Positions 1,553-52,159 of a stretch of DNA of 64,000 bases are shown in pieces (positions within the stretch are counted from its first letter, which is position 1; each line of letters begins with the position of its first letter). Under the pieces are notes generated by a model. The model did no database searches and was not told where the DNA came from. It was given only the letters and a program-made list of their open reading frames with translations. The translations under genes were made by a program, and so were the position numbers. The stretch lies in the NCBI GenBank assembly GCA_012845835.1, contig JABAKD010000028.1, positions 14,598,063 through 14,662,062 of the forward strand, read 5' to 3'. The stretch is from Undaria pinnatifida. Its lineage: Eukaryota; Sar; Phaeophyceae; Laminariales; Alariaceae.

Positions 1553-1752
1553 GTGCACGTGGTGTGGAACCTGAGATCGTCGGCAGAAGGGGAACAGGAC
1601 GGACCAGGCCTCCGAGTCAGTCCCCTCGAGGCTGACTTGCCTGCAGGCGGCACCCGTTCCTTCCGAGTGGAGGTTAGCCCGACGAAAAGGAACTGCTACT
1701 TTGTTGAAGAGGCGGAAGTTTTCGTGTCTCCAGCCAACCAGATGACTTTCAG
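1553..1752 (+). CDS. CFAP65: CFAP65 exon 1 of the window
   Basis: Opens after gaacag and ends TTTCAG before gtacac, with 66 codons plus 2 nt (phase 2 end). It encodes VHVVWNLRSS, then a strand pair SFRVEVSPTKRNCYF, typical of an ASH domain. An ATG at 1520 lies in the same frame but upstream of the acceptor. It is not taken as a start because the family protein is much longer. Confidence 0.88.
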
Positions 1753-4700: not shown

Positions 4701-5571
4701 GCCATGAGTTCTATGCGCTATTCGTTATTAGTATACCATATCAATAAACCATATTAATATACCATATTAATACTACTATTAATATTAATACTAATAGCAG
4801 TAGTCCAAAAAAAAAACACATCATCGTAAACTGATCGCACTAACCGATACTCCCGCGCTTAAAGGGCTCGACCGCACTATAGAGGGAGTCCAAGAAATGC
4901 AACTGCTACCGTTGCTAATGTGGGATGACTCTAGAAACATAGTTAACCCAATCAAGGCAACTCGTACCGCACTATAGAGGGATGACTCTAAATGCAATAC
5001 TACGCAATGCCTGCAATATATTTGTTGTTGGCGGTTTCCCTTGGTTTTCAAGTGATTTCTGGGAGAACGTCACGAGTGCTGTGTATCGCCTCCCTCTAAT
5101 AATGTCAAAATCAGCTAAATTGGGTCTTGACGCAGTATAGACTAATGCCTTCAAGGTTTTTTTGTTATATGCCTTCGTCGAACACGTAAATTAATTAGCG
5201 TTGTCAGATTACTGTAATAAATGTAAAGTATTAATAGAGTATGTTGCTCCAGCGTTTGCGAGCGGTTAGTATTAATGGTTGTTATTAATAGTTGGTATTA
5301 ATAGTTGGTATTAATAGTTGGTATTAATAGTTGGTATTAATAGTTGGTATTAATAGTTGGTATTAATAGTTGGTATTATTATTGATGGTTATTAGTGTGA
5401 GGGACGGTAAAATCGTGCCAATTTATTATATATATGTATCACGTTTTCTACGCGTGGTTAACGTGGAAGGGGTCAAACCAGACAAATAATGTATTAGCTG
5501 ATACCTGGTACTACTCTTAATACACTGATTGATTGATTGATTGATTTGATTGATTTGATTGATTTGATTGA

Positions 5572-5634
<63 letters not shown>

Positions 5635-8600
5635 TCATCCTTTAGGGGAACCGATGCGGGAAACGCTTTTGCCTTCGTGCCTAGACCAAGCGTTTGGGCT
5701 GATATCATGCGGCTGGGCGTCACAACCCTTGGCGACCCGACTGCGTAGACACATCGACCGCCGTGGGAGCTTTATATTACGTTTTTGTAGCTCCTCGTTT
5801 GGAGGTCCGGGTAAAACCAAGCTTCACCCAATCAATACAATTTTACTTCGTAGTGTGCTGCTTTTTGTCCATCTCTACAATACAGACTTGATAAAAACGA
5901 AACTATAGCTTCGCCCAAATACATTTTCGTTCTTCTTTCGTGTACCGATTTTTGTCCATGTGTACAACTCAGAATTGGTTTGTGCTCACCACGCAAAAAA
6001 AAATGTGGACGGCGGGGGATTCGAACCCCCGGCATTCCTAGGCTAGTGCACATCACGCATAAAAAGTGGAGGATGGGGGATTTGAACCCCCGACATTTCG
6101 CATGCAAAGCGAACACTCTAACCCCTGAGCTAAACCCCCGTTGCTACACAAGGCTATCATCTCAACCCACCGTAGGTCTTCTTAACCAAAGTATTTTGGA
6201 CGCTCCTCTCTTTGGGCGATCTATATGATATGTAGGTGGAGGCATGAATTGCGTCAGATGTGGGGACTTTTTCTTGCACACAATTTGACTTGCGGAAAAC
6301 GCGAGAGCGTGAGTTAGCAACACTCGATGGCACATCGACGAGCAGTGGGATTGCTGAATTTTATGCGCGATAAATATTGAAGGTAAGAATTGGGTGGTGC
6401 AAGGGACGACACCTGTGACCACGTCTTGTCGAGAAGCTGAAAAGTACAAGCGTGCGAAAAAAAAAAAAAAAAACATCGCTCACCCAAAATTGTCTGAAGT
6501 TTGAGTAAACTAGAACAAGTGTCCAAACCCATGGCCTAGGAATATACTTGTATATATAACATAGTACCTGGTATATAATAGTATTTTTAACACAAGAATG
6601 AATGACGTTCGGAGGATTTCGGATTATGGAGTCCCGTCCTTCACATTTTTTTTCTGTTTTGCCAAAACACAAACATGCCTCCTTAAGTAACAAGTTGCAG
6701 TAGGGGTGGTCGGTGGTGTCGTATAGAGAGCAACATTACCGCCTTGTAGCCGCCTTATTCATTCATCCATTCATTCAGGCGTTCCAGGCCATGAGTGCAA
6801 TTCCCTTTTGATAGTAGCGCCAAGCGATTTTTGACCGCCTTATACCGGCATACCGCCTTATTCAGACCGTCTTAATGGGGAACCCCTGGTGTATGTACCG
6901 GAAAAATGATGAGGACAAGCAGTTAGTTTTCTACATCCGCTCGAACGCTTACCCTATAATACCGTAGGGGTCCGTCAGTAGGCAGCGGTGCGCCAGACCG
7001 ATACGACCGCTGTCTCATTGGGGAAAGCCGTCATATTCACCTTACGTATTCATTCCGGGTTATTTATGAGTGAAATTCCCCGGTCGCGCCATGCGCCATG
7101 CGATTTGGACTTTGGACCGCCTTATATCGGGATACCGCCTTATATCGGCATATCGCCTTACTCAGGTCGCGGCATTACTGTAACTTCATGCCGCACATTG
7201 TCGCACAGCAAATCTTATACCAAAACAATAACCATCGTTCTAATTCTCTTAAAGACAAATACGTCTCCGCGTCCGTTCTGCGTAACGTATCCTCAGGCTG
7301 TCGAACCAGGGCAACATCCCCGCGTGTTTCAGCTTCCAGCCGGACCCTACGGGAGCGTTCGACATCAAACCCGCCGTCGGGCTTCTTCCTGCTGGGAATT
7401 TTCAGGTGCCCCTCGTGCTCCCTCTTCTTCTGGAGCATCTCGTGTGCTTATCCTTCGCTTGTGTCTCGCTCACGGGAAGAAATTGGCGCGAGGGAAATAC
7501 ATTATGAATAACTTGTACTTTTGTTTGCGCCCGCCTGCTTTCTATGATGATACGGCTATAGCCACGCATAAAGTGAGTGCACCCCCCCTCCTTTTTCCCT
7601 ACACGCACATGCCATCCAAGCAATAGGCAACTCTCTTTTCCCCTAATCGTAAATCTTAGAGCCTATACTGGCGGCCCAAGACAATACCATTCGCAACCAA
7701 CCAAGGCAATTACTTAGCCAATGGTGATGAGCCGTATATAGTACATAGTGGCAGAGAGAACGTTATAATATTTTTCCACTTATTCGACACGATGGTTGTG
7801 GACCACTGTGCCTTGTACGAATATATCGACAACCTTACTTAGCTACCGTAGCCCTTGAGGAATACTTCGAAGTATATTGATAACCTTAGGTACCATACCG
7901 TAGCCCTTAACCCACCCCAATCGAATCAACCAACCTTTAGTAACACAACTCCTCATTTTAGCCTCATTCACGGCAGTGTTCGTCAGCCACAGTGTCCAAT
8001 ACGAGCGTCCAATACGTGGTACCTGCTAACTCCCATTTGGTTTCGCAAGACCGTGCAGATCGATGCCACAGCAGTACACAACACGGGTAGAGTGGCTCAT
8101 GCGAAGTTATAACCCAGGAAAATGCGCACTTTCAATAGGCCATGCATATCACACGGCTCCCTCCCAGCACCGTGATCTGCCCAACCGTAGATGATGCAAA
8201 TCATATACGTACGGCGCTCTCGGTTCCAACCAGGGAAAAGGATTTACTGAGACCTGCCCTTAATTATGCAGATCGTACAGCTCCCTCCTCGCAACATGGC
8301 CCACTGAAACATATGCTGGATCATGCAGATCATTCGACTCTCTCCCGGCAACACGATCTACTACCTGGTATAGATCACTCTATAGATCATGCTATAGATC
8401 ATGCAAATGAGACGCCTCCCGTCAGGCAACATGATCTGCGGACACATGCGCTAGATCACGCGCGGGTAGTCTGCCCGCGTCTAGCAGCCAACCCCGAACA
8501 ACATCCAATATTTGTTCGCTTTTCGTACAGCTCTGCCTGGTCCGGTTCACTCCCCCGAGATTCGGAGAACGCCGCCACCGCTTGGTATGCGTGCTAAACA

Positions 8601-20600: not shown

Positions 20601-20736
20601 GATGATTGCAAGATGTTTCTTTCAATACCTATGCCGTGGAACTGATTGATTGGTTGATTGATTGATTGATTGGTGGATTGATTGATTGGTTGATTGGTTG
20701 ATTGGTTGGTGATTGATTGATTGATTGGTTGGTTGG

Positions 20737-20811
<75 letters not shown>

Positions 20812-35800: not shown

Positions 35801-38800
35801 ACCCGTCAGCACGATGATAGGTTGGTATTGATCTCGGCCGAACCGTGATTATTCCCCTCTTTTTTTCGGGGGGGGAGAGGGTCGGGGTTAGGGTTAGTCC
35901 GCAAGGTGCACTCTCTATTATCATAGGTATCTAAAGTAATGACGCTATCCCCACCCCACCGTTTTCTCTGGACGTCAGGCCTCGGCCGTTTGCACTCACT
36001 CGTGTTTCAAGGTCAAATGCCGAACATTCGGGGACAGCTTTAACTGTATGTTTTATGTTTCATTTGTTTTGTTTCCTGTAAGCGCCCAAAAAATTATCAA
36101 TTATTTTTAGGCGTCAACGTTGCATTACTGCGACCACCCGCCCCGCGATGTACCGATTCATAACCTAAGATGCAAACGCTCCAAATTCAACGAGTTATTG
36201 GACCAAGGCTACGCTATTATTGAATAGTAGGGCGCTTATTATGATGATGATTTTATTATGATGTTACGATGATGTTATGATGATGTTATGATGATGTTAT
36301 GATGATGTTGTGATGATGTTATGATGATGTTATGATGATGTTATGACGATGTTATGATGATGTTAATGATGATGTTATGATGATGTTATGACGATGTTAT
36401 GAAAACGTTGTGATGATGTTATGACAACGTTATGATGATGTTATGATGATGTTATAATATACCCCATGTTTCACTGCCGGATCTGAGCTATCATATCGTA
36501 TCATATCATATCATATCATATCATATCATATCATATCATATCATATCATATCATGTCATATCATACATACTAGCACGGCAGACTCCGTACTTCACCGACA
36601 AAAAATCGTATAGGCGTTTTTGTTCGGGCACAGCGTAGCTTACCATTACATTGCCGATGGATTGATACACCTTGTAGCGAAGTTAAACTATTCGTTGAAA
36701 GGAACAGGGGCGTTACGTTCCTGACGCGAGTGACCCCAAGAAGCCACTGAAAAGTGCGTACTTCGAACTACAACCCAAACAGTGAAAGCCCTTGCCGTAG
36801 CCACGGTCGTTCCTACACTAGAAGCAACATAGTGGATACTTTTCTACACGAAATTCAACATATTGGTTATTTTCATTCACGAAATTTAACAAATTGGTTA
36901 TTTTCATGCACTAAATTCAACGTGTTGGTTATTTTCATACATCGAAATTCAACATATTGGTTATTTCCTACACGAAGTTCAACATATATTGCTTATTTTC
37001 ATACATCGAAGCAGACGATAGAGAAAGCAGGCTGGCATTTTAAAGAAATGTAAGATATTATTCAGCCGTTGTACCGAAGTTTGTGCAGATCGCCCCCTCT
37101 CCCAAGCAAGCTTAGGGTTAGCAATCCGACCTGCAGAGGTGACTATTTATTTATGTTCATGTACGAGGTACGTACTTGCTGTGTAACACACCGAGCTACG
37201 CCTATAGCCCCTTTCTTTGCAGGTCATCCATGCAACCCCTCCAGCCAACAGCACCAAGGCCCTTAATGCTGTGTGGGTGATGTATCACCAACCACTGCAA
37301 CCACTATTATTAATAGACCACATACAACAGTAGTAGCCACGTGCTTAACGTAGTCCAACAGGCAAACGCTTCTAGATAACTTGCTGCTACTCGGCATGTT
37401 TGTTGACAAGAAGGTATTGTACGGGGGTGAAGAAAGTAATTCAAGCCGAGGACAATATGATGGCATGGCTATGCGCTCCCTCCGTTTCCCTTCGATATTA
37501 AAATGGCATAGTACAGCTCCGCTGCCTGCTGTGGAGCCCCTCAGTCAATTACGCCAAGGCTCCCGAACTACCTCTGTCTGCTGTACCCCGTGTTTTTATT
37601 ATAAAAAATGAAGATACACTCCAGCTGTGAGATCGAAGATTTTGTCGAAACTCATCTTTGCAAGCTGTGTGTGATACTCCGATCGCGCGTATTGCGGGTT
37701 GCGTGTCCTCATTAAGGATATAGGTCGGCGACTCCCCTTGCAACTACGGTGTAGCTATGAGGGTCAACAGGGTGATGTTAGGCAGTCTGTGCGCGGAAAC
37801 TATAAAACCCGTTTCTGAGGGGGACAAATTCTGACAGCTATGGAGAGAAATGTATCCGTTTATCAAGTGAATCCTGTAAGTCGAATAACCGGTGAGGGGA
37901 GGGCGGACTTTTGAAGGACGTGGGGGCCTGGTTTTGATCAAAAGCGAGCGGGGTTGCAGGAGGGGGGAGGGGGGGGGGGGGGGGGGGACTGGGGGGGGGA
38001 GGGGGCGGACAGGCGGGCAATTTGTGCGTGGAAAATATAAATCCTTTCAAGGGGATAAATCTGATGGTTTTGTTGGGAAAAAAGAAAAAAAGAAGAAAAA
38101 AAATGCACCAGTTTATCATAGGGGGGGGGGGTTGGGGCGGGGGTGGGGCGGGTGGGGCAGCTCAATCAGTGCGTGGAAACTATACATTATTTTGAGGGGA
38201 TAAATGTGACGGTTTTGGAAACAATGCATCAGTTTATCACGTATATCCTGGGGTAAGTCGTACAATCAGTGAGTAGAGAGAGGGCGGAGTGTTCGAGGGG
38301 GTGGGATGGGGTGGGGGGGCTGGGGAGGTGGGGGGTGGGGGCGGGGGGGGGAGGGGGGGGTGGGGGGTGGGGGGGGAAGGGGGGGGTGGGGGGGGAAGGG
38401 GGGGGCTTTTGATGACATAGATGTAGGGGTTTGTTATACGTGTGGTGCTAGGTCTAGGCGATGGTACGGGTGGTGCGGAAGAAAGGGGCGTTCGGGGCGG
38501 GGGGGGGGGGGAAATGGATGGCTCTAGAAAGATAATGAGGTGATATCCAGTGCGTGAAGTGTTTATTTATCTGGCGGGTTTCGATACCAGGTGGGGCGTT
38601 TGAGCGAGGGAGAGCGAGAAAATATTTTTTAGGAGGTTTAGGTCACAAATTATTTTTAAATACACTCCGGCTGTGAGATCAAAGATATGTAGAGGCTTGT
38701 TATACGCGTGGTGCTAGGTCTAGGCGATCGTGCGGGTGGTGGGAAAAGAGGGGGCGGGTTGAGGGGGGGGGGGGGGAAGAATGAAAACTGCGTCATGGAT

Positions 38801-41800
38801 GGTCAGAAAGATAATGACGTGATATCAACTGCGAAAAGGTGTTTATTACTCTGGTCGATATCGATGTGAGTGGGGCGTTTGGACAACCTAGGCGGAAAAA
38901 CAAAAGGGGGGGGGGGGAGGGATCGGGGGATGAGGGGGGGGGGGGGAGGGGTGGTTTTTTTTTTTCAACAAGAGGGATCGGGGGAGGGGGAGGGGAGGGG
39001 GGGGCGGGGGGCGGGAAATTTCAATATGTGCGCGGAAACTATAAATCCTTAAAGCTAAAGGGGACAAATCTGATGATTGTAGCAAGAAGACATCTCTTTA
39101 TATCACCTGCCTGGTAATGTTTGCTATTCTAGAAGGTTTAATGTTTGATGCAGCATGCAACCCAGTGTTTAAGTGCAGTGAATAACGTGTTAAATCTTCA
39201 TAATTTGTTGTTGTGCATGGATCGAAAATAGAATATTTTACAGAATATTTGTAGTTACCATTATTTTCTGACATCGCTAACTATAAGAAAGGGATACGTA
39301 TTGCCGAATACAACAGGCGAGGTGATGTGGTCATGCACTGTTTGTCACCACCATCATATAGTTACCATTATTTTCTGACATCGCTAATATTTACGAAAGG
39401 GATACGTATTGCCAAATACAGCATGCGAGGTGATGTGGCCATGCACTGTCTCCGCCATTGAGCACAAGAGGGAGAAATGCGAATCGTCAGTGGAACGCTT
39501 GGTATACGCGCGCTCAATTACGTTACCTCGTTAGTCATACTTGGTATACATGCGTTCACTAACGTTACCTCGTTAGTCATACTTCGCTTGGCATAGGTCG
39601 GGAGGCGATCATGCAGACGGTATGTACGAAACACCCTACGTAATGGGTTGGTAAGGTGGCTTACCGCAATTTTAACATATCTGCCTGTGCTTCCTTTTCA
39701 AATTAATATTGTCTCAAATGTACGATTTCACGCCCATGATTTCCACCTTGCCGATGTGGGGCTCTGAGGTCGTCAATTTTAAGACAGAGATACATCTTAC
39801 AAATACATCAGGCGAGTTGGGTATGCGATGTCATATATATGCGATGTCACCACTATTGAACGCGAGGGTGACTTTACTTCGTTAGGCATATGATACTGTG
39901 TTTCGTGGAGGTCGTCTCAGGTGGGCATGCGATGGGTCGGCAGTGACAGTGTGCTTTACCGCAATTTTAACAGGTCTGCCTGTACAGTGTGCTTCCTTTT
40001 CAAATTATTATTATAAAAAATTAAAATCCCTCCAGCTGTGAGATCGAAGATTTCGTCGAAACTCATCTTTGCATGCTGTGTGTGATACTCCGATCGCGCG
40101 TATTACGGGTCGCGGTTGTGAGCTCCATCATGGGGTTGTATATCTTGCAATGAGGCGTTTAAGCCTCATTATTACGAGGTGTGGGGGAATCTATAGCCTC
40201 ATTTTCGTTTGTTTCGAATAGCCGCATCTTCGATCCCCCTCCCAATTTTTGATGTTTTGTTGACATCATTTAATGGGCAGGTGATCTGCATCTACGACTA
40301 TTCAGGGTGGGCTAATGTTATAGAGTGTCAGTATAGCTGGCAATAGATTCGGTAGGATAGTCCGCAGATTCATGGTCTATTGGCCACAAGAAGGTTCTCT
40401 CAAACGGAATATTCTGAGTGAAGCGGGTAACCCGTAGAATCTAGTTAGTTTATACCACAAGAGCGTTCTTGGAAATGAAACGTTCTTCCTCTGGACAAGA
40501 TAGATAGAAGTAAGCGCGTTAGGCGCTCATGGGAATATAGAGCATCTGGGAGAACGTTCCTTGTACGTTCCATAGGTAAAGGTCCGGAAGAGAGCACAGC
40601 AGCAAAGCTGGGGTGAAGCGAACTCTGTGAGCTTCATCCCACCCCCGTGCTCTCACTCCTCCTCCTCCTCCTCCTCCTTCTCGTCCTTCTCCTCCTCTTC
40701 CTCTTCCTGTCTCCTCGAGCTTGTCATAGCTCAACGCCAATAAATAGAAATCTATAAAGAAGAACCGGTGCTGTCTCCAAGCGAAGCTGATACCCCTGCG
40801 TCCCTTCCCTCACACCTTCCGGCACCACGACACCTTCACAAATGGCGTCGTCGGCAGGACACGAACCTTGCAACTACAGTATTATAGCTATCAGGGTCAA
40901 CAGGGTGATGTTAGGCAGTCTGTGCGCGGAAACTATAAAACCCGTTTCTGAGGGGGACAAATTCTGACAGCTGTGGAGGGAAATAAATGTATCCTTCTAT
41001 CAAGTGAATCTTGTAAGTCGAATAACCGGTGAGGGGAGGGCGGAGTTTTTAGGGACGTGGGGGGCTGGTTTTGATCAAAAGCGAGCGGGGTTGGAGGAGG
41101 GGGAACGGGGGGGGGGGGTGGACTGGGGGGGGGAGGGGGGGGACGGGCGGGCAATTTGTGCGTGGAAGCTATAAATCCTTTAAGGGGATAAATATGACGG
41201 TTTTGGGAAAAAAAAAAAAGAAGAAAAAGAAATGCACCAGTTTATCATAGGGGGGGGGGGTTGGGGCGGGGGTGGAGCGGGCGGGGCAGCTCAATCTGTG
41301 AGTGGAAACTATACATTATTTTGAGGGGATACATGTGTTTTTGTAGACACGAAGGTTTGGGATGAACAAACCGACTGAAACCACAGGCAATTGATTGTGA
41401 CGTCTGCGCGTTTCCTCCGTTTCACTTTTTTGGTGGCATTGTGCAGGTAACATTACTACATATGGCGTAAACGCTACGTTAACATATCGAGCAAACAGCT
41501 CCATTGTCTGCAGTGAATCCCTCAGTTTAGCCCACCAATGCCCCGAACTACCGCTCTGCCCTGTGTGTTCGTTGTCCGGAAGGTTTGGGGTGCACAACCG
41601 ATTCAAGCCGCGGACACGGCGGAGGAGGAGCGACCACAACAGCAGTTGGTGAGCACAGCTTGCGCGGATCCCGACACCCAGCGGACCGTGGCTGCCGCTC
41701 TCGAGGGAACATTCTTCAATATTATGCAGGTACGGCGGTGCAACTCTCTTCACTATTACATGTTGACTAGCTGAAACACGACTTGTTTCAGCTACTCGTA

Positions 41801-44625
41801 CGATACCCGTACGATACGTATACACATACCAGATATATAAGACCGATTTTGAGTCGTTTTGAGTCCTTTTGAGTGATCCCTCTATAGGGCGGTAGTAGCG
41901 GCAGGTGTAGCAAACCCTGGGTCAACTAATGTTTCCGCTAATGATACCGATAATGATACCAGTAGCAATCGTAGCGCATAGAACAAGTAAGTGTTGGTCG
42001 CGATCCGCGAAAGAATGTCTTCGAACCATTTTTCGGGTGATCACCATCATGATGATGTTGATGATGGAAGTCATGATGATGATGTTGATGATGGAAGGTA
42101 ATGATATTGAGCTCGTCGGGTTAGGAGGCCAGAAATTTCTTAGGAACTTCTTAGAAACTTCTGCTGCACCCCTAGCGTGGGGCTACTCTTTTTTCTCCAT
42201 GCCCCAGTTGTTTTCAGAGGTTCCTCCTCAATTTTCGAGCTGTTTTCATCTTTTCCTTTCTTCCCCCACAATCTCTGATCTAGGGGGAAACTACCAGTTC
42301 TACCCCATGAGAACTCGCAGAAAAAAATAGAATCTCCGACTGAGGGTTAGATGGCTTACGACTGTAGTTTAGGTAAACTATACTGTTAGTTAACCTTTTG
42401 CAAGTGGTCAATCAAACGGACTATTACCCCACTAATACCTTAACAAATGGCGTCGTCGGCAGGACCATGGGTTTTTTGGGTCGTGGGTTCCAACCCCACA
42501 TCCACCATAATAAGCTTTTTCAGACTTTCCCCATGTCGAACTTGAAAAATACTCTCCCCCGGTATCCCCAGGAAATATAACCGCTTGGATACTAACAGGT
42601 CCGCCCGTATATCCGGCCGACCTGCTATCCCGCCGTTTCAGGGAGGGAAAGTGTTATAAGGCTTAGTTTGGGTAAGCTATTGATTAACCTTTTGCAAGTG
42701 ATCAAACGGACTAATACCCCACTCATGACCTTAACATTAACACCTTGAGAAGTGGAAACCCCTTTTTTCGACAATTTCACTTGGATTTAGTACAGGTGAG
42801 GGGTTCGGGGACGCTAAATGGGCTAAGGAGCCCCGTTAATATCCAGAAAAAAAAAGAGCCAAAAAAAGGCACAGCAGTACGATGATCGATCGCAGTAGTA
42901 GTAGTACCTTTATCATAGCTAGCACGTTTATCACAGCTGTGCTGACGAATGCTATGATCATGCCTGATGATGCGGACGGGGGTGCACATATCGTAGGTTT
43001 TCTTTGGCCCCGTTCACTCGAGGAGGTTCTGTACTACTCGGTACTACTCGGTACTACTCGGTACTACTCGGTACTACTCTGTACCTCATACCGTCTGAAA
43101 GCAGTTGTTTAAAAAAATACAAATGAAAGAGCAAACCACGGATACTGCCATGGACAATCTATACTTCCACAATGATAATGAATGGGTAATCTTGCAAACT
43201 ACGAATGAATACTGCCATGGACTATCTATACATGCACACTAGGTAATCTTGCGAACCACGAATACCGCCATGGACTGCTGTCTATGCATACACAAAGGAT
43301 AATCTTGCAAAACGAATAAAGAATACTGTCGTGGCCTATCTGTGCATAGACTACACATCTAACAATCTTGCAAAGCCAACAAAGAACATTGGCATTGCCT
43401 ATCTATGAATACACAACTGACACTCTTACAAAACGAATAAAGAATACTCCCATGGACTAATGGACTGTCTATGCATACACAATGTATGCAGAGATAGATA
43501 ATATTAGGCCATGGCAATCTTCTTATTATCTCTGCATACACAACGGATAATCTCGCAAAACTAAGAAAGAACATTGCCATGGACTATCTATGCATACACA
43601 ACGTAGTACTGCCATGGCCTATCTAAGCAGGGATGGACATTATCGTGTTCTCTCAACCATTTCACCCTAACTAACGACGTTAGTATGTTTCGGCCACTTC
43701 CACCCATCCCATGGTGAAAAACACAATGATGTAGGGCACCCTGTCTATCTGATCTAGTCTATGCATACAAATAATGATCTTGCAAAACCATGAACACTGC
43801 CATGGTCTAGCTATGCATAAACCACGAATCATCTTGCAAAGCCAACAAAGAACACTGCCATATGGCCCATCCATGCATAGTCTAAGCAAAGAACAATATT
43901 GCGAAACCAACAAAGAACACTACTACTACTGCTGTCATGGCCTATCTATGCATACAAAAACAAGAATTTTGTGACCATGAATAGTGTGTAGGCGACAATT
44001 GTTGGAGAGCTCCCCGGTCGAGGATCTCTGTTTTTCATGGCGAGAAAAAACACTGGTAAATAAATAAAGGCCAAGCGGTGCCTGCCGTGTCACCCCTATT
44101 GTGACAACAAGTAAGAACACCGCCACCGCCGACTTGTAACAAAAACGCAGGCTGCTCTCCTCGCCGCCACTGCCGAATTTTGTTGCCCGTTGAACACAAG
44201 ATCGCGCCAACACACGAGGCGCTTGCACGGCGAGTTGTTCAACCTCACCGAAACGATGAAAACAGTTCACCATGTCCGAAAGACCCGTACTGGTAGGCGT
44301 TTCGATCTCTTACGTACGGGTGATGTCAAAAACGCTTGAGCGCTCTCCCAACTAATAATGCGGAATTTGTTGCTCGTTGAAAAAACGCTCTGCACAGGAG
44401 GCGCTTCACGGCGAGTTCAGCCTCAGCAAACGGCCAAAGCGCTTCGCCATCCGGAAGCCGAGCAAAAGCTTAGCCCGGACCACGCAGGGGGGCGTTTCCA
44501 ACAAGAGATCTATGGGTCCAGAGCCTGCTCAATCGAGAATCCCGCCAGAAACTGGTGCGACTGCTCTGGAGGATCACCCCGTCTCTCAGGCTCGGAATTG
44601 TACGGACAAGGGGCTGGGAGCTTAA
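1553..44625 (+). CDS. CFAP65: CFAP65-like cilia/flagella protein, 3' part of the gene, 25 exons
   Basis: Twenty-five exons join with matching phases to give 4503 nt: 1500 codons and a TAA stop. The order of conserved segments matches animal CFAP65/CCDC108 collinearly: the VVW-R-S strand, PWC-l, P-GLLPAG, RPTCVG, a SRIP-FAID ASH domain, LEN-ECDVTYKL, the LW-LSL-IN helix, ETWANQGE, the EAKEY strand, KGVGYDP, LGRIPQG, then a charged C-terminal region ending in FNIMQ-EALHGEF. CFAP65 proteins are ASH/MSP immunoglobulin-like repeat proteins needed for motile cilia and the sperm flagellum. The 5' end (roughly the first third of the family's length) is outside the window. Coding sequence is about 10% of the locus. 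Orthology rests on my recall of the family, not a search. No canonical AATAAA is obvious just after the stop. Confidence 0.9.
1881..1967 (+). pseudogene. Echo of exon 1 (copy a)
   Basis: Resembles the 3' half of exon 1, with blocks such as tgtggaagaggcggaagc and cagtcagatgacctt. The splice donor is altered, since CAG is followed by tacag. Same strand as the gene, about 130 bp downstream of the source exon. Confidence 0.8.
2132..2228 (+). pseudogene. Echo of exon 1 (copy b)
   Basis: A second copy of the 3' half of exon 1. It starts with agtggaggttagcccgg and ends TTCAG followed by gtacagc, so the donor-like site is retained. Small indels relative to exon 1 break the frame. Confidence 0.82.
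2503..2845. repeat. 12-bp minisatellite (gggtaacattaa)
   Basis: About 27 units of gggtaacaytaa in intron 1, varying mainly between att and act. Long open frames on both strands here are artefacts of a unit length divisible by three. Confidence 0.95.
3229..3627 (+). mobile_element. Miniature LTR (TRIM-like) element, copy 1
   Basis: Two similar terminal blocks, both beginning TGTT-TAAGGCTTA and ending in ACA, flank an internal part of about 200 bp. Right after the first block comes aATGGCGTCGTCGACAGGACC, a primer-binding-like site starting TGG. A purine tract (aggggggg agag) precedes the second block near 3515-3530. The internal part also holds gggttcgaatcc, like a tRNA T-arm or pol III B box. 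No clear target duplication is visible. Confidence 0.65.
3628..3880. repeat. AT-rich degenerate repeat (aacctattaa)
   Basis: Irregular repeats of aacctatta and ataacctg in intron 1. They include three copies of the nine-base TACCWGGTA motif. Confidence 0.7.
4064..4237 (+). CDS. CFAP65: CFAP65 exon 2
   Basis: Follows the acceptor gctgtacag. The first base completes an AGA codon left by exon 1. Encodes TVKDATQQPPWCLPLLVLGH and later VYQTI. The PWC-L..GH pattern matches the same position in CFAP65. Ends ATCAG before gttcgg (phase 2). The longer open frame continuing past this donor is intron. Confidence 0.88.
4345..4557. repeat. 10-bp minisatellite (atcgaaaacg)
   Basis: About 21 units of cgatcgaaaa, starting some 110 bp after the exon 2 donor. 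The first units are variants (cgatggaaaa) and the last four have tg in place of cg. Confidence 0.95.
4569..4690 (+). repeat. Dispersed repeat fragment (gtgcagcagaa...acccgaaac)
   Basis: Shares gtgcagcagaa and acccgaaacgtgacg with copies near 15420-15545, 42105-42165 (minus) and 52160-52480. Nature unknown. Confidence 0.55.
5270..5385. repeat. 13-bp repeat (ttggtattaatag)
   Basis: Eight or so nearly perfect units in intron 2. Confidence 0.9.
5526..5632. repeat. (TTGA)n microsatellite
   Basis: Tetranucleotide repeat of about 26 units with a few 5-base units. The poly-NQSI frames over it are not genes. Confidence 0.95.
6003..6045 (-). pseudogene. Truncated tRNA-like 3' half
   Basis: On the minus strand a perfect T-arm (GGGGG TTCGAAT CCCCC) is followed by GCCGTCC, the expected acceptor 3' strand. 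The anticodon arm and 5' half are absent. The flank cacgca plus an A run, then gtgga, is repeated 55 bp further on before the intact tRNA, so this is probably a duplicated 3' fragment. Confidence 0.6.
6067..6139 (-). tRNA. tRNA-Ala (TGC)
   Basis: The minus strand folds as a cloverleaf. Acceptor GGGGGTT pairs with ATCCTCC (one T-T mismatch and one G-T). D arm GCTC-AGGGGTTA-GAGT. Anticodon stem TTCGC/GCGAA with loop TTTGCAT, giving anticodon TGC. T arm GGGGG-TTCAAAT-CCCCC. Discriminator A, no encoded CCA, and a TTTTT terminator follows. It lies antisense in intron 2 of the CFAP65 gene. Confidence 0.85.
6703..6886 (+). mobile_element. MITE-like element, copy M1
   Basis: Shares tagcgccaagcgattttt, repeated accgccttat blocks and a terminal ggggaacccc with the other copies. 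The left terminal inverted repeat is degraded. Confidence 0.6.
6967..7168 (+). mobile_element. MITE-like element, copy M2
   Basis: Begins ggggtccgtcagtaggc and carries accgccttatatcgggat and ataccgccttatatcggc near its right end. The right terminal repeat is lost. Lies about 130 bp upstream of exon 3. Confidence 0.6.
7297..7405 (+). CDS. CFAP65: CFAP65 exon 3
   Basis: Acceptor cgtatcctcag and donor TTTTCAG before gtgccc. The first base completes AGG from exon 2. Encodes LSNQGNIPACFSFQPDPTGA then FDIKPAVGLLPAGNFQ, a classic ASH strand order (N-G-IPA-F and F-I-P--G-LPAG). The longer overlapping open frames on both strands are in other frames and show no such pattern. Confidence 0.93.
8140..8470. 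repeat. GATC-rich dispersed repeat
   Basis: Alternating agatcatgcagatcat and ctccctcccggcaacac blocks in intron 3. Related GATC-rich stretches occur near 9035-9200, 12345-12560, 21680-21960, 23870-24350, 31040-31250 and 56770-56930, often with gatctgtc followed by a gtgtga-type word. Confidence 0.6.
8531..8833 (+). CDS. CFAP65: CFAP65 exon 4 with poly-Gly run and GC donor
   Basis: Acceptor tttcgtacag. 101 codons in phase 0. It starts LCLVRFTPPRFGERRHRLVC (end of one ASH domain), passes through a low-complexity linker with eight glycines encoded by a GGT/GGA run, and ends ATIYMRPTCVGIASSSSFQ, matching the YF-PTWVG start of the next domain in CFAP65. The donor is CAG followed by gcaagc (a GC-AG intron). 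It is supported because exon 5 then continues in phase. Confidence 0.9.
8834..8839 (+). other. GC 5' splice site of intron 4
   Basis: The exon ends TTCCAG and the intron begins gcaagc. No GT fits here without losing the conserved SSSSFQ-VKNSSRIP junction. Confidence 0.75.
8936..9030 (+). pseudogene. Echo of exon 5 (copy a)
   Basis: Located upstream of the true exon. Shares ttcgccgtcgacctcccgtc and gtgtttggagtgtccccc with exon 5 but has indels and loses similarity after gttgggggat. Confidence 0.78.
9551..9612 (+). pseudogene. Echo of exon 5 (copy b, 5' part only)
   Basis: Matches the first third of exon 5: an acceptor-like gtcag, then frame KPSSRVPVTFAID against VKNSSRIPIIFAID in the exon. 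It stops before the second half. Confidence 0.7.
9729..9905 (+). CDS. CFAP65: CFAP65 exon 5
   Basis: Acceptor tgggacag, 59 codons, phase 0 at both ends, donor GTCAAG before gtaggt. Encodes VKNSSRIPIIFAID, GVFRVSPIAGLLLGHQ and VIFAPRETKEYRF, the three core strands of an ASH domain. It aligns without gaps to the FRNPSRLPLQF domain of CFAP65. Confidence 0.95.
10010..10197 (+). mobile_element. MITE-like element, copy M3
   Basis: Left end gggatcccttagtgaggcgg and right end accgccttatgaggggactcc are imperfect inverted repeats. The interior has gaccgccttatatcgggat. A gtacagtag minisatellite (about 9955-10000) abuts the left end, as in copy M5. Confidence 0.7.
10246..10391 (+). pseudogene. Echo of exon 5 (copy c)
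   Basis: Downstream copy covering most of exon 5, including gggtatttccccattgcgga and catctttgccccg. An in-frame TGA at 10363-10365 replaces the AGA of APRETKE. It ends ccggtcaag followed by gtgcag, so the donor position is preserved. Confidence 0.85.
10546..10692. repeat. Minisatellite (gagactaggttaggtt)
   Basis: About nine units of 10-17 bp in intron 5. Confidence 0.85.
11585..11760. repeat. 15-bp minisatellite (gtaccttgttgaa)
   Basis: About twelve units of 14-16 bp in intron 5. The antisense open frames here are artefacts. Confidence 0.9.
12271..12308 (+). pseudogene. Echo of the exon 6 acceptor region (copy a)
   Basis: ctgctcacggagtgtcgcca followed by ggacccagtaatg resembles the exon 6 acceptor and start (gctcacggattgtcgccag). 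Confidence 0.6.
12594..12640 (+). pseudogene. Echo of exon 6 (copy b)
   Basis: ctcacgggactctcgccag then ctgagggaagggacgcc matches the exon 6 acceptor and first codons. The second codon is TGA in the exon frame. Confidence 0.72.
12885..13002 (+). CDS. CFAP65: CFAP65 exon 6
   Basis: Acceptor gattgtcgccag. Starts LGEAAPAVIKPGAYVTVSGQ and continues VTFHPESLSYAVRL. The Y-TVSGQG strand closes one ASH domain (VGVG in animals) and LSYAV begins the next. It ends TTAG before gtgagt, a strong donor, giving phase 1, which exon 7 completes. This exon has no long open frame around it, so length alone would miss it. Confidence 0.88.
13105..13600 (+). repeat. Dispersed G-rich repeat (family B), copy 1
   Basis: Starts near ttattataaaaaacg and includes agctgtgagatcgaagattt, gatactccgatcgcgcgtat, gggtcaacagggtgat, then a long G run. 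Copies lie at 37590-38115, 40005-41330 (interrupted) and 50040-50615 (minus), with fragments elsewhere. Class unknown. Confidence 0.8.
14221..14290 (+). pseudogene. Echo of exon 7 (copy a)
   Basis: An acceptor-like cgcag followed by about 60 bp matching the start of exon 7, including actggagaactgcagcgagt. The next codon is TGA where the exon has TGC. Confidence 0.88.
14509..14622 (+). CDS. CFAP65: CFAP65 exon 7
   Basis: Acceptor atttgaggcag. Two bases complete GTT from exon 6. Encodes NTSESKALVLENCSECDVTY then KLFYIANKEPPARHSSK, matching VNSKQS-FLVL-ND--C-LYYRL in CFAP65. Donor AAAG before gtgata (phase 1). An in-frame alternative acceptor at 14474 would add residues that break the ASH spacing, so the later site is preferred. 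Confidence 0.9.
14762..14806 (+). pseudogene. Echo of exon 7 (copy b, fragment)
   Basis: ttatcctgcagcgattgcga matches the ENCSECD part of exon 7. A TAG follows in the corresponding frame. Confidence 0.65.
14870..14950 (+). pseudogene. Echo of exon 7 (copy c)
   Basis: ttatcctgcagcgagtacga then gtgacatacgga and gccaacgagcttctcgctcg follow the second half of exon 7. With copy b it forms a tandem pair of about 110 bp beginning gcagtaccttgttttatt. Confidence 0.75.
15420..15545 (+). repeat. Dispersed repeat (cagaaatttctaagaattttc)
   Basis: Shares gcagaaatttctaagaattt, acatcaacatc and acccgaaacatgacg with 52160-52480 and, inverted, 42105-42165. Confidence 0.65.
16651..16816 (+). CDS. CFAP65: CFAP65 exon 8 with Gly/Glu-rich insert
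   Basis: Acceptor tgcctttag. Two bases complete a GGA codon from exon 7. A low-complexity stretch (VGGGEAGGGGEPAGRR) precedes ALFVDKPEGTLPA, the F--P-G-LPA strand expected here. Donor GCAAG before gtatgt leaves phase 2. The insert sits in a loop of the ASH domain and is absent from the animal protein. Confidence 0.88.
17491..17563 (+). CDS. CFAP65: CFAP65 exon 9 (73 bp)
   Basis: Acceptor gttttgggcgccag. One base completes AGA. Encodes SRTRTIATFRPISEGAYEFS then FLCQ. Donor TGCCAG before gtgggg. This short exon completes the domain begun in exons 7 and 8. Its phase (2 to 0) is the only one joining exons 8 and 10 without loss of frame. Confidence 0.9.
18201..18250 (+). pseudogene. Echo of exon 10 (copy a)
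   Basis: aaggtttcgctggtcagccg then tacggaagacatcagcagtc matches the first 45 bp of exon 10 together with its AAG acceptor. Confidence 0.75.
18381..18487 (+). pseudogene. Echo of exon 10 (copy b)
   Basis: Covers about the first 105 bp of exon 10. Shared blocks include aaaggtttcctttgtcaac and caagcagggtcacacggcg. It has an in-frame TAA where the exon reads FRHQ. The intron flank (caaccatgttactcccctcc) is copied too and recurs at about 18650 before the true exon. Confidence 0.88.
18727..18950 (+). CDS. CFAP65: CFAP65 exon 10 with GC donor
   Basis: Acceptor ttttgtgtgacgaag, phase 0. Starts VSLVNRTGDENSPFRHQIEM. An Ala/Gly-rich stretch follows, then MMPLRCSVSG. The donor is GGCAG followed by gcaagc, a second GC-AG intron with the same hexamer as intron 4. 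It leaves AG, completed by G of exon 11. The open frame running on to 19104 is intronic. Confidence 0.85.
18951..18956 (+). other. GC 5' splice site of intron 10
   Basis: Exon GGCAG, intron gcaagc. Using it joins RCSVSG to RASFPSVVFRDV in phase, matching the family. Confidence 0.72.
19368..19533 (+). CDS. CFAP65: CFAP65 exon 11
   Basis: Acceptor ctgttgtgcgaag, donor AACCAG before gtaata. Encodes SFPSVVFRDVRMTREGG and SLWAALSLSTINDMLSKPLS then EEEVKFNQ. The P-l-i-DVR...LW-l-SLd-lN-yL---pt--El pattern is diagnostic of CFAP65 and is the strongest single family signature in the window. Confidence 0.95.
19661..19760 (+). pseudogene. Echo of exon 11
   Basis: About 100 bp matching the second half of exon 11: tgcgggctgccctttcg, ccaagcaagctcttatccga and gaaagtcaagattaac. 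Contains indels and no donor. Confidence 0.85.
20640..20842. repeat. (TTGA)n and derived repeat
   Basis: Tetranucleotide tract with interspersed ttgattggttgattgg units in intron 11. Confidence 0.95.
20895..21050. repeat. Degenerate repeat (gtatcaatagactattatg)
   Basis: Five to six irregular units in intron 11. Confidence 0.75.
21554..21646 (+). CDS. CFAP65: CFAP65 exon 12
   Basis: Acceptor ctctttatgcag, 31 codons in phase 0, donor CTGCAG before gtaaag. Encodes ESSPDTSQLPRFDVPFVPSA then CGPVVITLQ, the first strands of the next ASH domain. Confidence 0.88.
21975..22150. repeat. Minisatellite (ggtgattcatgctgaat)
   Basis: Eight or nine units of 17-20 bp in intron 12. Confidence 0.85.
22455..22513. 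repeat. 12-bp repeat (gccgtgtgacat)
   Basis: Five units in intron 12. Adjacent open frames are artefacts. Confidence 0.85.
22710..22814 (+). CDS. CFAP65: CFAP65 exon 13
   Basis: Acceptor ccttcaacag, donor GCCGAG before gtatat, 35 codons in phase 0. Encodes VCNPGLLPTSVTVNLPNAKP then VEMETWANQGEPTAE, aligning to KNSGVV--DWAFLLPSD followed by the ELWAEQ motif of CFAP65. Confidence 0.95.
22840..23180. repeat. Minisatellite (gttgattatctgagc)
   Basis: About twenty degenerate units of roughly 15 bp, starting 30 bp after the exon 13 donor. Confidence 0.85.
23674..23835 (+). CDS. CFAP65: CFAP65 exon 14
   Basis: Acceptor ccacccgcag, donor GTGCTG before gtgagt, 54 codons in phase 0. Encodes AFSITPDPGTVIEVSAGEKQ then YGGVHDLPVL, matching FSISPKAGSLSPGQEQ and GTDHLPVL in the animal protein. 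Confidence 0.95.
24505..24592 (+). CDS. CFAP65: CFAP65 exon 15
   Basis: Acceptor gttattaatag. Encodes VSIKEGRHFWLDLKGTTVPP then PMVYVPT, and ends CCTACAG before gtgata (phase 1). The donor is the first unit of a 10-bp minisatellite. Confidence 0.88.
24593..24828. repeat. 10-bp minisatellite (gtgataatgg) starting at the splice donor
   Basis: About 24 units, beginning exactly at the GT of the exon 15 donor, with variants gtggtaatgg and gtgatgatgg. Every unit repeats the first ten bases of the intron. Confidence 0.95.
25424..25590 (+). CDS. CFAP65: CFAP65 exon 16
   Basis: Acceptor gcgcgtttaacag. Two bases complete GGT. Encodes LQRHYVLDPVAVGTPLKEAP, ITEILNVGDALVSYRVEG and ends GHGIP before gtgagc. 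Matches the IPIGDTLPP-Q-YEL-N-G-VPVTYEV domain. Confidence 0.93.
26036..26219 (+). mobile_element. MITE-like element, copy M4
   Basis: Shares gtcgcgccaag, gaccgccttatatcgggata and the right end ccgccttattggggaacccc with the family. The left end (ggaggggtgggcc) is degraded. Confidence 0.65.
26225..26437. repeat. Minisatellite (ctgctgtactgctgta)
   Basis: Alternating ctgctgta and ctgta units, ending about 40 bp before the exon 17 acceptor, so it occupies the likely branch-point region. Open frames on both strands are artefacts. Confidence 0.93.
26479..26714 (+). CDS. CFAP65: CFAP65 exon 17
   Basis: Acceptor caacgacgcag. Encodes VFRLENKEGTIPGGGG, RWRFLPVEAKEYVLRVAV and MEITLKGVGYDPRTCDPH. The FSPIEAKTYTV and FQGVGYNP motifs of CFAP65 lie at the same positions. 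Donor CATAG before gtgagt (phase 2). Confidence 0.95.
26785..26955. repeat. Minisatellite (ggaagtttccatgg)
   Basis: Repeats of ggaag-ttcc words, themselves palindromic, in intron 17. Confidence 0.8.
26961..27010 (+). pseudogene. Echo of the 3' end of exon 17
   Basis: tggaaaatcacgctgatggg then gtttggtacgacccc matches the MEITLKGVGYDP segment, about 250 bp downstream of the source. Confidence 0.82.
27180..27350. repeat. Degenerate repeat (cggtactcttggtactgc)
   Basis: Irregular 18-30 bp units rich in gtact and tcgac in intron 18's upstream neighbour, intron 17. Confidence 0.65.
27474..27642 (+). CDS. CFAP65: CFAP65 exon 18
   Basis: Acceptor cgcgcacttacag. One base completes AGC. Encodes EKLPPVDLGLTHPARQLELL and GQPCVLGAERLRLGRIPQGA, ending NCLKKT before gtgagt. 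GQNVFLSQSHISLGNIP in CFAP65 is the counterpart. Confidence 0.94.
28444..28650 (+). CDS. CFAP65: CFAP65 exon 19
   Basis: Acceptor gcaacgcgcag, 69 codons in phase 0. Encodes ALQFSWDPYETG, SSGVVSIRPLRGSLGAEQSM and CAVRLVPPST. Ends AGCACG before gtgatt. If the donor were ignored, a TAA would follow six codons later, but exon 20 continues the family order, so splicing is preferred. Confidence 0.88.
28918..29262 (+). CDS. CFAP65: CFAP65 exon 20, charged helical region
   Basis: Acceptor cctacccgcag, 115 codons in phase 0. Encodes RLEVRMEEERQARARQAEPR, a probable helix matching the LQEWKDEKVRQE region after the last ASH domain, then a divergent linker. The donor GCGGAG before gtaagg is strong. Ends inside a longer open frame that runs into the intron. 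Confidence 0.85.
29263..33106. other. Intron 20: repeats and an unassigned non-repetitive block
   Basis: This 3.8-kb intron holds a degenerate caatgttcaactt repeat (29440-29750), two similar blocks with taggcccggggcag words (about 29760-29820 and 29996-30050), GATC-rich sequence (31040-31250), a telomere-like gggttagggttagg at about 31315, and the GGGTC foldback element. The part from 32140 to 32800 is non-repetitive. It has overlapping open frames on both strands that I cannot assign and could be a transposon fragment. Confidence 0.5.
31565..31959. mobile_element. Foldback-like element with GGGTC/GACCC arms (copy A)
   Basis: Imperfect terminal inverted repeats of about 27 bp: gaaacatttcagggcctttc at the left against gaaacgtttcaggaattttc read inward from the right. 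Inside are about 22 GGGTC pentamers (31665-31772), an 80-bp spacer, and about 15 GACCC pentamers (31855-31932). The two arms can pair into one long hairpin. Confidence 0.8.
33107..33271 (+). CDS. CFAP65: CFAP65 exon 21
   Basis: Acceptor accacctcaacag, donor AGCCAG before gtaagg, 55 codons in phase 0. Encodes AQQQQSLKNASQDP, VLKRLTEDVVATHEVRQCLK and ARVPTFSQ. Corresponds to the helical KQLLVDILTTIIRGLLED segment of CFAP65. Confidence 0.85.
33395..33690. mobile_element. Foldback-like element with GGGTC repeats (copy B)
   Basis: Left aggattttcacgcgtcatga and right gtgacccggcccgtgaaaat are inverted relatives of each other and of copy A's ends. The interior is a (GGGTC)n tract at 33505-33640 with gtgtc variants. 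It has no long GACCC arm. Confidence 0.7.
34132..34428 (+). CDS. CFAP65: CFAP65 exon 22
   Basis: Acceptor acattttccag, donor ATTGAG before gtaagt (near-perfect), 99 codons in phase 0. Encodes IRDALSLPDRVARALAPHAQ and ends GVLAGLLDAIE. It has no diagnostic motif. It is assigned by phase, strong splice sites and position in the variable C-terminal region. Confidence 0.8.
35157..35426 (+). CDS. CFAP65: CFAP65 exon 23
   Basis: Acceptor gttttgaaaaaaacag, 90 codons in phase 0. Encodes VLPEGGASISDLVSTLNNAT and NSLEEWLDRDNLG, then a Pro/Gln/Thr-rich tail ending KPIQPQ before gtgtga. Reading through would give V and a TGA stop. Splicing is preferred because exons 24 and 25 carry the family's C-terminus. 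The longer open frame over this region is a different frame. Confidence 0.78.
36238..36460. repeat. Minisatellite (atgatgttatg) and (TCATA)n
   Basis: About 20 units of gatgttatgat in intron 23, followed at 36490-36556 by a tcata pentamer tract. Confidence 0.93.
36838..37015. repeat. Tandem repeat (attcaacatattggttattttc)
   Basis: Five to six units of about 30 bp in intron 23. Confidence 0.88.
37511..37593 (+). pseudogene. Echo of the exon 24 5' region
   Basis: acagctccgctgcctgct, gcccctcagtcaatt and cccgaactacctctgtctgc align to the sequence at about 41503-41565 just before exon 24. It lies 4 kb upstream of its source and directly abuts a family B repeat. Confidence 0.72.
37594..38115 (+). 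repeat. Dispersed G-rich repeat (family B), copy 2
   Basis: Same order of blocks as copy 1, ending with a run of more than 15 G and ggggataaatctgatggttt. Confidence 0.85.
38160..39100 (+). repeat. Family B fragments and extreme G-rich tracts
   Basis: Repeated pieces of family B (gtggaaactata, ggataaatctga) interspersed with G-only and GGGA/GGGT tracts at 38290-38410, 38495-38515, 38755-38780 and 38910-39020. Such tracts can form G-quadruplexes on the transcribed (plus, sense) strand of intron 23. Confidence 0.75.
39280..39470. repeat. Tandem duplication of about 90 bp
   Basis: tagttaccattattttctga and gggatacgtattgcc occur twice, at about 39253-39345 and 39358-39450. Confidence 0.8.
40005..40118 (+). 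repeat. Family B copy 3, left part
   Basis: attataaaaaattaaaatcc then agctgtgagatcgaagattt. Interrupted at about 40118 by an LTR-element insertion and resumed at 40866. Confidence 0.8.
40119..40865 (+). mobile_element. LTR element fragment inserted in family B (internal end, LTR, PBS)
   Basis: From left to right: about 190 bp shared with 56980-57177 (gtatatcttgcaatgaggcg), a purine-rich stretch (cagggtgggctaa), an LTR at about 40316-40840 that begins TGTTATAGAGTG and ends CACCTTCACA, then aATGGCGTCGTCGGCAGGAC, identical to the PBS-like site of the miniature LTR family. No coding sequence. Confidence 0.7.
40866..41335 (+). repeat. Family B copy 3, right part
   Basis: Resumes at ccttgcaactacag and continues through gggtcaacagggtgatgtta, the G-rich runs and aggggataaatatgacgg. 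Confidence 0.8.
41583..41729 (+). CDS. CFAP65: CFAP65 exon 24
   Basis: Donor ATGCAG before gtacgg, phase 0. Encodes ADTAEEERPQQQL and TVAAALEGTFFNIMQ. The LE-T-FN-MQ motif is the hallmark of the CFAP65 C-terminus. The acceptor is uncertain. gttgtccggaag (start 41583) is used here, while gaatccctcag (start 41526) also keeps the frame and would add 19 codons. Confidence 0.85.
42105..42165 (-). repeat. Dispersed repeat fragment (inverted copy)
   Basis: Inverse complement of the gtgcagcagaaatttctaag element found at 15420 and 52160. Confidence 0.5.
42341..42736 (+). mobile_element. Miniature LTR (TRIM-like) element, copy 2
   Basis: The right LTR (42652-42736, 85 bp) begins TGTTATAAGGCTTAG and ends CCTTAACA. 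The left LTR (about 42341-42445) is more diverged. A PBS-like aATGGCGTCGTCGGCAGGACC follows the left LTR at 42446 and a purine tract (agggagggaaag) precedes the right LTR. There is no room for coding sequence. Confidence 0.75.
43020..43082. repeat. 10-bp repeat (tactactcgg)
   Basis: Five to six units in intron 24. Confidence 0.9.
43130..43970. repeat. Long-unit minisatellite (about 55-70 bp)
   Basis: About a dozen degenerate units with aagaacactgccatgg, cctatctatgcatacaca and aatcttgcaaa words in intron 24. None of the small open frames look like protein. Confidence 0.9.
44168..44255 (+). pseudogene. Echo of exon 25 with its intron flank
   Basis: gaattttgttgcccgttgaa then cgaggcgcttgcacggcgag and ttcaacctca match the exon 25 acceptor region and first 40 bp (EALHGEFSL). 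The CAG acceptor is changed and an extra base shifts the frame. It lies about 220 bp upstream of the true exon. Confidence 0.87.
44398..44625 (+). CDS. CFAP65: CFAP65 exon 25, C-terminus and stop
   Basis: Acceptor cgctctgcacag, phase 0. It starts EALHGEFSLSKRPKRFAIRK, following FNIMQ of exon 24, exactly as the family ends (MQEA---EF-L-ARPR-I). A basic, Ser-rich lineage-specific tail ends NCTDKGLGA and TAA. With this exon the 25 pieces total a multiple of three. Confidence 0.92.
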   Translation, partial: EALHGEFSLSKRPKRFAIRKPSKSLARTTQGGVSNKRSMGPEPAQSRIPPETGATALEDHPVSQARNCTDKGLGA

Positions 44626-51578: not shown

Positions 51579-51773
51579 GGGGTCCCCCAGTAAGGCGGTG
51601 ATGTGCTATTAATAGAGCAACATTAAAATGACCGCCTAATTGGGGGAAGCCACAATATTCACTCGAGGTTGTGTGTGCCATTCCCTTTCAATAGTCGCGC
51701 CAAGCGATTTTGGCTGGCCGCCTTACATCGGGATACCGCCTTATATCGGCAGACCGCCTTTTTGGGGAACCCC
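51579..51773 (+). mobile_element. MITE-like element, copy M5 (best preserved)
   Basis: 195 bp with terminal inverted repeats of 21 bp: GGGGTCCCCCAGTAAGGCGG at the left and GGGGTTCCCCAAAAAGGCGG read inward from the right. Subterminal accgcctta words repeat inside. No coding capacity. No clear target-site duplication. Confidence 0.82.
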
Positions 51774-52159
51774 TAGTGTACAGTGCCTCATTTTCGCCAA
51801 AAAGTGATTATAATTGTGATTATGGGGGGGAAAACAAATCAAGTGGTGATCCCCGATGAACAGTACCTACCAGGTACCATGCCTTATAATACCATGCCGC
51901 AGGTATACCACCAAAGCATGTTGAACATCACAATAATTCAATTGCGCCGACGGTTTTGGGTTGACCCTTTTTAGCACCGCACTCGCGAGATGGGGATGAA
52001 ACAGTTTCCATACTTGTCGGAGTTCTAAGCTACAGTAGGAGCCATGTCATTCAGCAAGAAAATTTTCCGACAACAACTTCTACACCTCTAACTTAGCACG
52101 CGTCCCCTGTCCCCCGATTCCTGGCGTTTGTGGTGGGGCCGACACCGTGATCGATTCAT

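Follow-up and report, generated by a model that had tools for sequence, protein, structure and literature searches.

The window, the whole 64-kb stretch of DNA analysed here, contains on its + strand a flagellar, CFAP65-like gene, for which a self-trained gene model gives 26 predicted exons between 1520 and 44625. The exon model is ab initio, with a putative start at 1520/1553, and its 3' end at 44625 falls on the same base as the gene end of the original prediction for this DNA. Masking removed spurious G-rich exons that an initial model had called. In a Pfam scan of the + strand frames, CFAP65 Ig-like matches were seen at 7.3, 9.7, 19.4, 22.7, 23.7, and 26.5 kb, and the joined protein matched the Ig_CFAP65_4th (2.4e-30), 9th (5.5e-28), and general Ig_CFAP65 (8.6e-26) models. 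The 4th, 8th, and 9th models and the general Ig_CFAP65 model were above their cut-offs, in that order, in the joined protein; the 7th model also scored, but on the same stretch as the 4th. With CFAP65-specific Ig-like domains in order, the predicted protein qualifies as a putative CFAP65 orthologue. Among the ten exons for which copies are described below, a Pfam match covers only E5, E12, and E17, and E1, E6, E7, E11, E21, E25, and E26 are predicted solely by the ab initio model. One frame of 21901-31900, searched against PDB sequences, gave nothing stronger than weak matches to xanthine oxidase (E 0.31-0.4).

Several other features were observed in the window. One intron of the CFAP65-like gene contains a tRNA-Ala (tgc) gene (6066-6139, - strand). 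Arrays of 5-mers (TCGGG/ACCCG) are present in both orientations at 31656-31775, 31854-31936, and 33510-33635, giving long inverted repeats. Long near-pure G tracts (37962-38405 and 41087-41151) adjoin a dispersed repeat family, and the GC skew reaches +0.40 at 38-40 kb. Five sites in the 64 kb (6815-6878, 7097-7178, 10138-10201, 26140-26225, and 51698-51779) belong to a short dispersed family that carries an internal repeat of 18 nt (ACCGCCTTATATCGGCAT). Upstream of the CFAP65-like gene lies a contiguous tandem duplication of 202 nt (771-1177, 90% identity).

Each of the 26 exons was searched against the whole masked 64-kb window on both strands (scoring 1/-1, E<0.01). Same-strand partial copies less than 1 kb away were found for nine exons (E1, E5, E6, E7, E11, E12, E17, E21, and E25), which together have 13 copies at 73-86% identity: three for E5, two each for E1 and E7, and one for each of the remaining six. 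In addition, a copy of a tenth exon, E26, was detected at E=6e-4 in a tiled self-search of the window. The best matches in the exon search reached E values of 1e-14 to 1e-18, and no antisense or distant match of any of the 26 exons was found at E<0.01 in the masked 64-kb window. The next-ranked matches were one distant match at E=0.15 and two self-palindromes at E=0.14 and 0.17 with the 1/-1 scoring, and one distant antisense match at E=0.16 with 2/-3 scoring. With the remainder of the window as the control, the exon copies are far above chance. The original prediction, that at least 9 of 25 exons have decayed, local, same-strand copies, and some exons more than one, is therefore borne out, with 9 of 26 exons by the exon search and E26 added by tiling.

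All of the copies lie on the + strand. The E1 source segment (1661-1752), within the predicted exon at 1520-1752, is matched in the tiled search by two copies of the 3' part of the exon, at 1870-1999 (209 nt downstream, 72%) and 2173-2260 (476 nt downstream, 76%), and the similarity continues 34 nt beyond the exon end. E5 (9726-9905), which matches the Ig_CFAP65_4th/7th domain, is the donor of three copies. The first, at 8954-9032 (805 nt upstream, 86%), derives from 9759-9835, so that both source ends are internal to the exon; the others are at 9557-9605 (from 9731-9779; 174 nt upstream, 76%) and 10286-10393 (from 9791-9907; 495 nt downstream, 74%, or 78% over the shorter stretch of the exon search). 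For predicted E6, 12872-12909 recurs at 12605-12642 (267 nt upstream, 82%). Predicted E7 has an indel-free copy of 14482-14562 at 14206-14286 (276 nt upstream, 81%, two in-frame stops) and a copy of 14546-14580 at 14877-14911 (331 nt downstream, 80%). E12 (19435-19530) also has an indel-free copy, at 19665-19760 (230 nt downstream, 75%, one in-frame stop), and E17 (26647-26704) and predicted E25 (41562-41616) have copies at 26949-27006 (302 nt downstream, 75%) and 41334-41389 (228 nt upstream, 73%), respectively. The copies of predicted E11, E21, and E26, like those of E1, cross the exon edge into the intron: 18635-18831 recurs at 18301-18493 (334 nt upstream, 64% along the full alignment), 29968-30038 at 29736-29806 (232 nt upstream, 76%), and 44327-44450, weakly and in the tiled search, at 44140-44273 (187 nt upstream, 69%).

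Differences between the exons and the 14 copies were unevenly distributed over the codon positions (43/295, 52/291, and 83/291 for the first, second, and third positions; chi-square p=7e-5); the coordinates of the E26 copy in this analysis were set by hand from the tiled-search alignment. The ratio of third to first-and-second positions was 1.76, below the ceiling of 2. The mismatches numbered 20, 16, and 41 for the Pfam-supported E5, E12, and E17, and 23, 36, and 42 for the other exons. This pattern fits a neutral copy compared with an exon in which codon positions 1 and 2 change at roughly 0.14 times the neutral rate, that is, a constrained source and a drifting copy. When read straight through, six of the 14 copies contain stops, three of them gap-free (E7, E11, and E12), and seven contain frameshifting indels, so that a stop or a frameshift is present in ten. 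The four copies that are open over the aligned stretch are the second copy of E1, the E5 copy at 9557, the E7 copy at 14877, and the E21 copy.

Similar pairs are also present within the introns. A near-contiguous duplication of 107 nt lies at 39252-39449 (+ strand, 91%), and 38421-38602 is repeated at 38687-38881 on the same strand (76%, 266 nt apart). In addition, 5982-6036 is paired with 6046-6097 (+ strand, 80%), and the second copy overlaps the intronic tRNA-Ala gene by 32 nt, covering the first 32 nt of the gene as mapped on the + strand; this pair is a possible non-exon example of local copying.

The frequencies of copying in exons and introns were compared with 120-nt tiles (E<0.01; here and in the kinesin regions below, tiles with over 30% masking were excluded). 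In the window, the exon tiles had near same-strand copies in 13 cases out of 64 and the intron tiles in 94 out of 416 (Fisher p=0.75), and the frequencies remained similar when tiles with other repeat matches were dropped (13/64 vs 75/416; Fisher p=0.73). The intron count is somewhat inflated, because some of the intron tiles are themselves copies of exons. Near inverted copies were seen for none of the 64 exon tiles and four of the 416 intron tiles. With 170-nt tiles, the counts were 12/38 for exons and 82/280 for introns, and dropping the repeat-matching tiles left the exon rate slightly above the intron rate (12/38 vs 63/280). Among the intergenic 120-nt tiles of the window (outside 1753-44397), 46 of 263 had near same-strand copies; the repeat-free copies were rarer (19/263) than those in the intron tiles (75/416), and local copying may thus be non-uniform.

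An independent sample was taken from the 511,146,479-base genome (68 contigs) in the form of 20 kinesin regions, of 40 requested, with 130 kinesin motor matches as the coding markers and 56 exon cores used. Of the kinesin matches in these regions, three with several internal stops were dropped, whereas the 56 cores include ten that have one stop each, so that a few cores may overrun the exon edge, and the between-core tiles may contain unmatched exon parts. Same-strand near copies (E<0.01) were found for 9 of 56 exon cores and 80 of 469 between-core tiles (p=1.0), as well as for 140 of 903 tiles outside the first-to-last core. No inverted near copy of the 56 cores was found at E<0.01, one match having E=0.027, and inverted copies were present for 16 of 469 tiles between and 29 of 903 tiles outside the cores. 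When queries that matched other regions were dropped, 4 of 56 cores and 45 of 469 between-core tiles remained, a filter that is unfair to kinesin exons because they match their own paralogues. The kinesin regions showed no comparable deficit outside the cores (repeat-free, 76/903 outside vs 45/469 between cores). One kinesin locus (L032, 4042-7638, and L003) recurs 29 kb away with 100% identity over 3597 bases, which reflects either a very recent duplication or an assembly duplication. A comparison of these two paralogous stretches for empty insertion sites revealed no difference between them.

A placement test, free of the inflation by intron tiles that copy exons, was also performed. In it, the exons were re-placed randomly in unmasked non-repeat sequence and compared with pairs on the same strand (scoring 2/-3, E<1e-3); a repeat-like pair was retained solely where it involved an exon, a rule that works in favour of exons. 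Over all loci, 16 of 82 exons were touched, compared with 12.8 expected at random (p=0.19), and 23 of 82 pairs touched an exon, compared with 14.9 expected (p=0.023, before correction for bias). For the window by itself, 10 of its 20 pairs were exon-touching (4.8 expected, p=0.009) and 7 of 26 exons were touched (4.7 expected, p=0.18), and in the kinesin regions alone 13 of 62 pairs were exon-touching (10.0 expected, p=0.21). Simulation at the search threshold, with lengths of 50-200 nt, gave a detection bias of 1.58-1.66-fold from constraint on the source exon alone. Multiplying the expected 14.9 by 1.6 gives about 24, compared with 23 seen, and the excess of the whole sample is therefore accounted for by detection bias. 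The excess of the window itself (10 vs 4.8) is above 1.6-fold and is incompletely covered by this bias, in a set of only 20 pairs.

These results indicate that, over all loci, exons are not copied more than introns after detection bias is taken into account. The original prediction had named an equal frequency of non-exonic duplication as grounds for abandoning its claim, and this equality was found both in the window and in the kinesin regions; a process directed at exons is thus unsupported, as intron tiles are copied about as often. The over-representation of coding segments that it suggested is, for the whole sample, of the size of the detection bias, and in the window somewhat larger. Its caution that selection on the source exon makes copies easier to detect proved apt, the simulated bias of about 1.6-fold matching the all-loci excess.

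The shape, reach, and strand of the local duplications were surveyed in the window and the 20 kinesin regions together (254 kb, pairs within 5 kb), leaving out of the counts the pairs with dispersed-repeat similarity (69 same-strand and 27 inverted). The non-repeat pairs comprised 81 same-strand and 6 inverted pairs (binomial p=7e-18), and 80 of the 81 same-strand pairs were less than 1 kb apart: 38 below 200 nt, 35 at 200-500 nt, 7 at 500-1000 nt, none at 1-2 kb, and one beyond. Identity was mostly 65-90%. Gaps of more than 30 nt separated 64 of the 81 same-strand pairs, and 17 were contiguous (gap of 30 nt or less). The spaced pairs (gap of at least 50 nt, n=58) had a median length of 70.5 nt (quartiles 49-85.5) and a median offset of 269 nt. 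In the roughly 204 unmasked kb of the gene and the kinesin regions, 79 pairs were present, about 0.4 per kb.

These distributions can be read in more than one way. If plain tandem duplication had produced units as long as the copy spacing, and the intronic copy had then drifted neutrally and lost sequence by deletion, the spaced appearance would be secondary; we regard this explanation as possible but doubtful. It draws on the plentiful tandem arrays in the window (139 rows), on the fact that 17 same-strand and no inverted non-repeat pairs are contiguous, as are two of the four simple pairs with at least 95% identity, and on the E1 copies, whose steps of 209-258 nt resemble a decayed array. 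Such a unit would, however, extend past the ends of the copies, and 16 of 18 tests gave no match for the exonic flanks beyond those ends, the other two showing residual similarity (p<0.05). The power to detect a contiguous duplication of that age was 0.96-0.99 in simulation (blocks of at least 60 nt, 14 of the 18 tests). Given these sharp exonic ends and the high simulated power, most of the exon copies therefore appear to be discrete patches and not decayed whole units. The left flank required by a contiguous unit was likewise unmatched for E7, E6, E11, E25, and E26 (p 0.54-0.97) and non-significant for E5 (0.13 and 0.12) and E21 (0.15), with a simulated power of 0.99 for 120-nt blocks, and simple pairs at 85-90% identity were separated by a median of 182 nt. 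When flanks were tested in the wider set of spaced pairs, 15 of 51 tests reached significance, suggesting that some pairs are longer than their alignment, which favours tandem units for these. As the sole cause, contiguous tandem duplication was rejected: similarity fills the spacing in 17 of 81 pairs and fails to do so for most exon pairs.

Dedicated copying of exons, as preferred donors via, for example, splicing intermediates or transcription-linked repair, would account for the exon-touching excess of the window (p=0.009), but is improbable, because the kinesin pairs showed no significant excess despite the exon-favouring rule, the tile rates are about equal, source constraint alone yields the 1.6-fold bias, and the copies of E1, E11, E21, and E26 extend over the exon edge into the intron. 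Still less probable is that the copies are functional exons, whether alternative (mutually exclusive) or hidden, belonging to the CFAP65 repeat domains. Known tandem exon duplications and mutually exclusive exons retain whole exons with splice sites. The copies seen here resemble them in being same-strand exon copies in an adjoining intron, and the repeated Ig-like domains of CFAP65 and the four open copies are compatible with such exons. They differ, however, in being exon fragments, ten of 14 with a stop or frameshift, and the codon-position signal is that of neutral copies; the ten broken copies speak against functional alternative exons as a general explanation, which was therefore rejected. 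Equally improbable is an origin in dispersed repeats or an assembly artefact, even though several dispersed repeat families are present in the window and one kinesin locus, possibly an assembly duplication, recurs at 100% identity 29 kb away. An identity of 73-86% is incompatible with assembly errors. Dispersed repeats were rejected as the source, since the exon queries had no distant match in the window at E<0.01 and E12 was found at one place in the 511 Mb, a search that also missed the 75% copy of E12 itself and so excludes close copies only.

The exon copies are most probably the exonic share of a general short-patch, same-strand mutational process in this genome. Short patches, the middle half of them 49-86 nt long, would be copied on the same strand, usually 150-500 nt away, whatever the patch encodes. 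Replication or repair template switching would create the patches, perhaps by a synthesis-dependent route in which nearby DNA is captured at a break, or through a polymerase slipping back and forward on one template, and the contiguous minority would be ordinary tandem duplications. Selection presumably purges copies that land in exons. The exon copies remain recognisable for longer because their source is conserved, and this gives the appearance of an exon echo. The best-supported reading is that one strand is copied in short patches during template switching, or during break repair that captures nearby DNA, with ordinary tandem duplications as a minority; the same-strand bias, the short reach, and the sharp ends are observed, and the repair step is our inference. 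The original prediction had proposed tandem duplication, slippage, or repair-linked copying, the right class of process for short, local pairs that are 81 to 6 in favour of the same strand.

The kind of process matches ones already known, namely doublets and repair-mediated duplications, and it looks like an active form of short local duplication that is not aimed at exons. Doublets, reportedly described by Thomas and colleagues in PNAS in 2004, are said to be short, local, same-strand pairs in animal and plant genomes, defined by exact matches and inserted without disturbing their surroundings. Their length range is 25-100 bp. The pairs seen here are likewise close, with a large same-strand excess, and the lengths of the spaced pairs (median 70.5 nt, n=58) are comparable, whereas their identity of mostly 65-90% and their distances of mostly 150-500 nt set them apart from exact matches.

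Duplications by repair-mediated capture of proximal DNA were described by Pace et al. (2009; PMC2671141), where the donors lie within 5 kb in 824 of 1,136 cases, at a donor-acceptor separation of more than 50 bp, and the copies are 50 to 619 bp long, with a mean of 162 bp for the proximal ones. Exons are among those donors, with copies placed in an intron of the same gene, and the authors propose that synthesis-dependent strand annealing at breaks is responsible (PMC2671141). That paper also credits the earlier work of Thomas et al. The near but non-contiguous donor resembles the present pairs, with their 58 same-strand gaps of at least 50 nt and sharp exon-copy ends. In contrast, the copies in that paper were identified within interrupted transposable elements, where breakpoint signatures and also empty sites could be seen (PMC2671141), whereas the present evidence is sequence similarity within one genome, with most pairs too decayed to place breakpoints; the exon example given there is inverted, whereas here the same strand dominates. 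The original prediction knew of no description of the pattern in its own form, whereas short local and repair-mediated duplications, including those of exons into adjacent introns, have been published (PMC2671141). A search of one open library found no literature on exon echoes or on such copying in brown algae.

Overall, a claim of a special exon process is misleading without an intron control. Tentatively, and with less confidence than we attach to the general process, these data may point to same-strand copying of short patches that is unusually active in this genome and reaches about 150-500 nt; it would be distinct from tandem duplication and a measurable source of intron growth, clocked by constrained exons. 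The exons serve as preserved originals, whose decayed intronic copies keep a record of local duplication that fades sooner in intron-only pairs. In intron-rich genomes, this makes it possible to measure the rate of short local duplications, as well as their reach, strand bias, and length.
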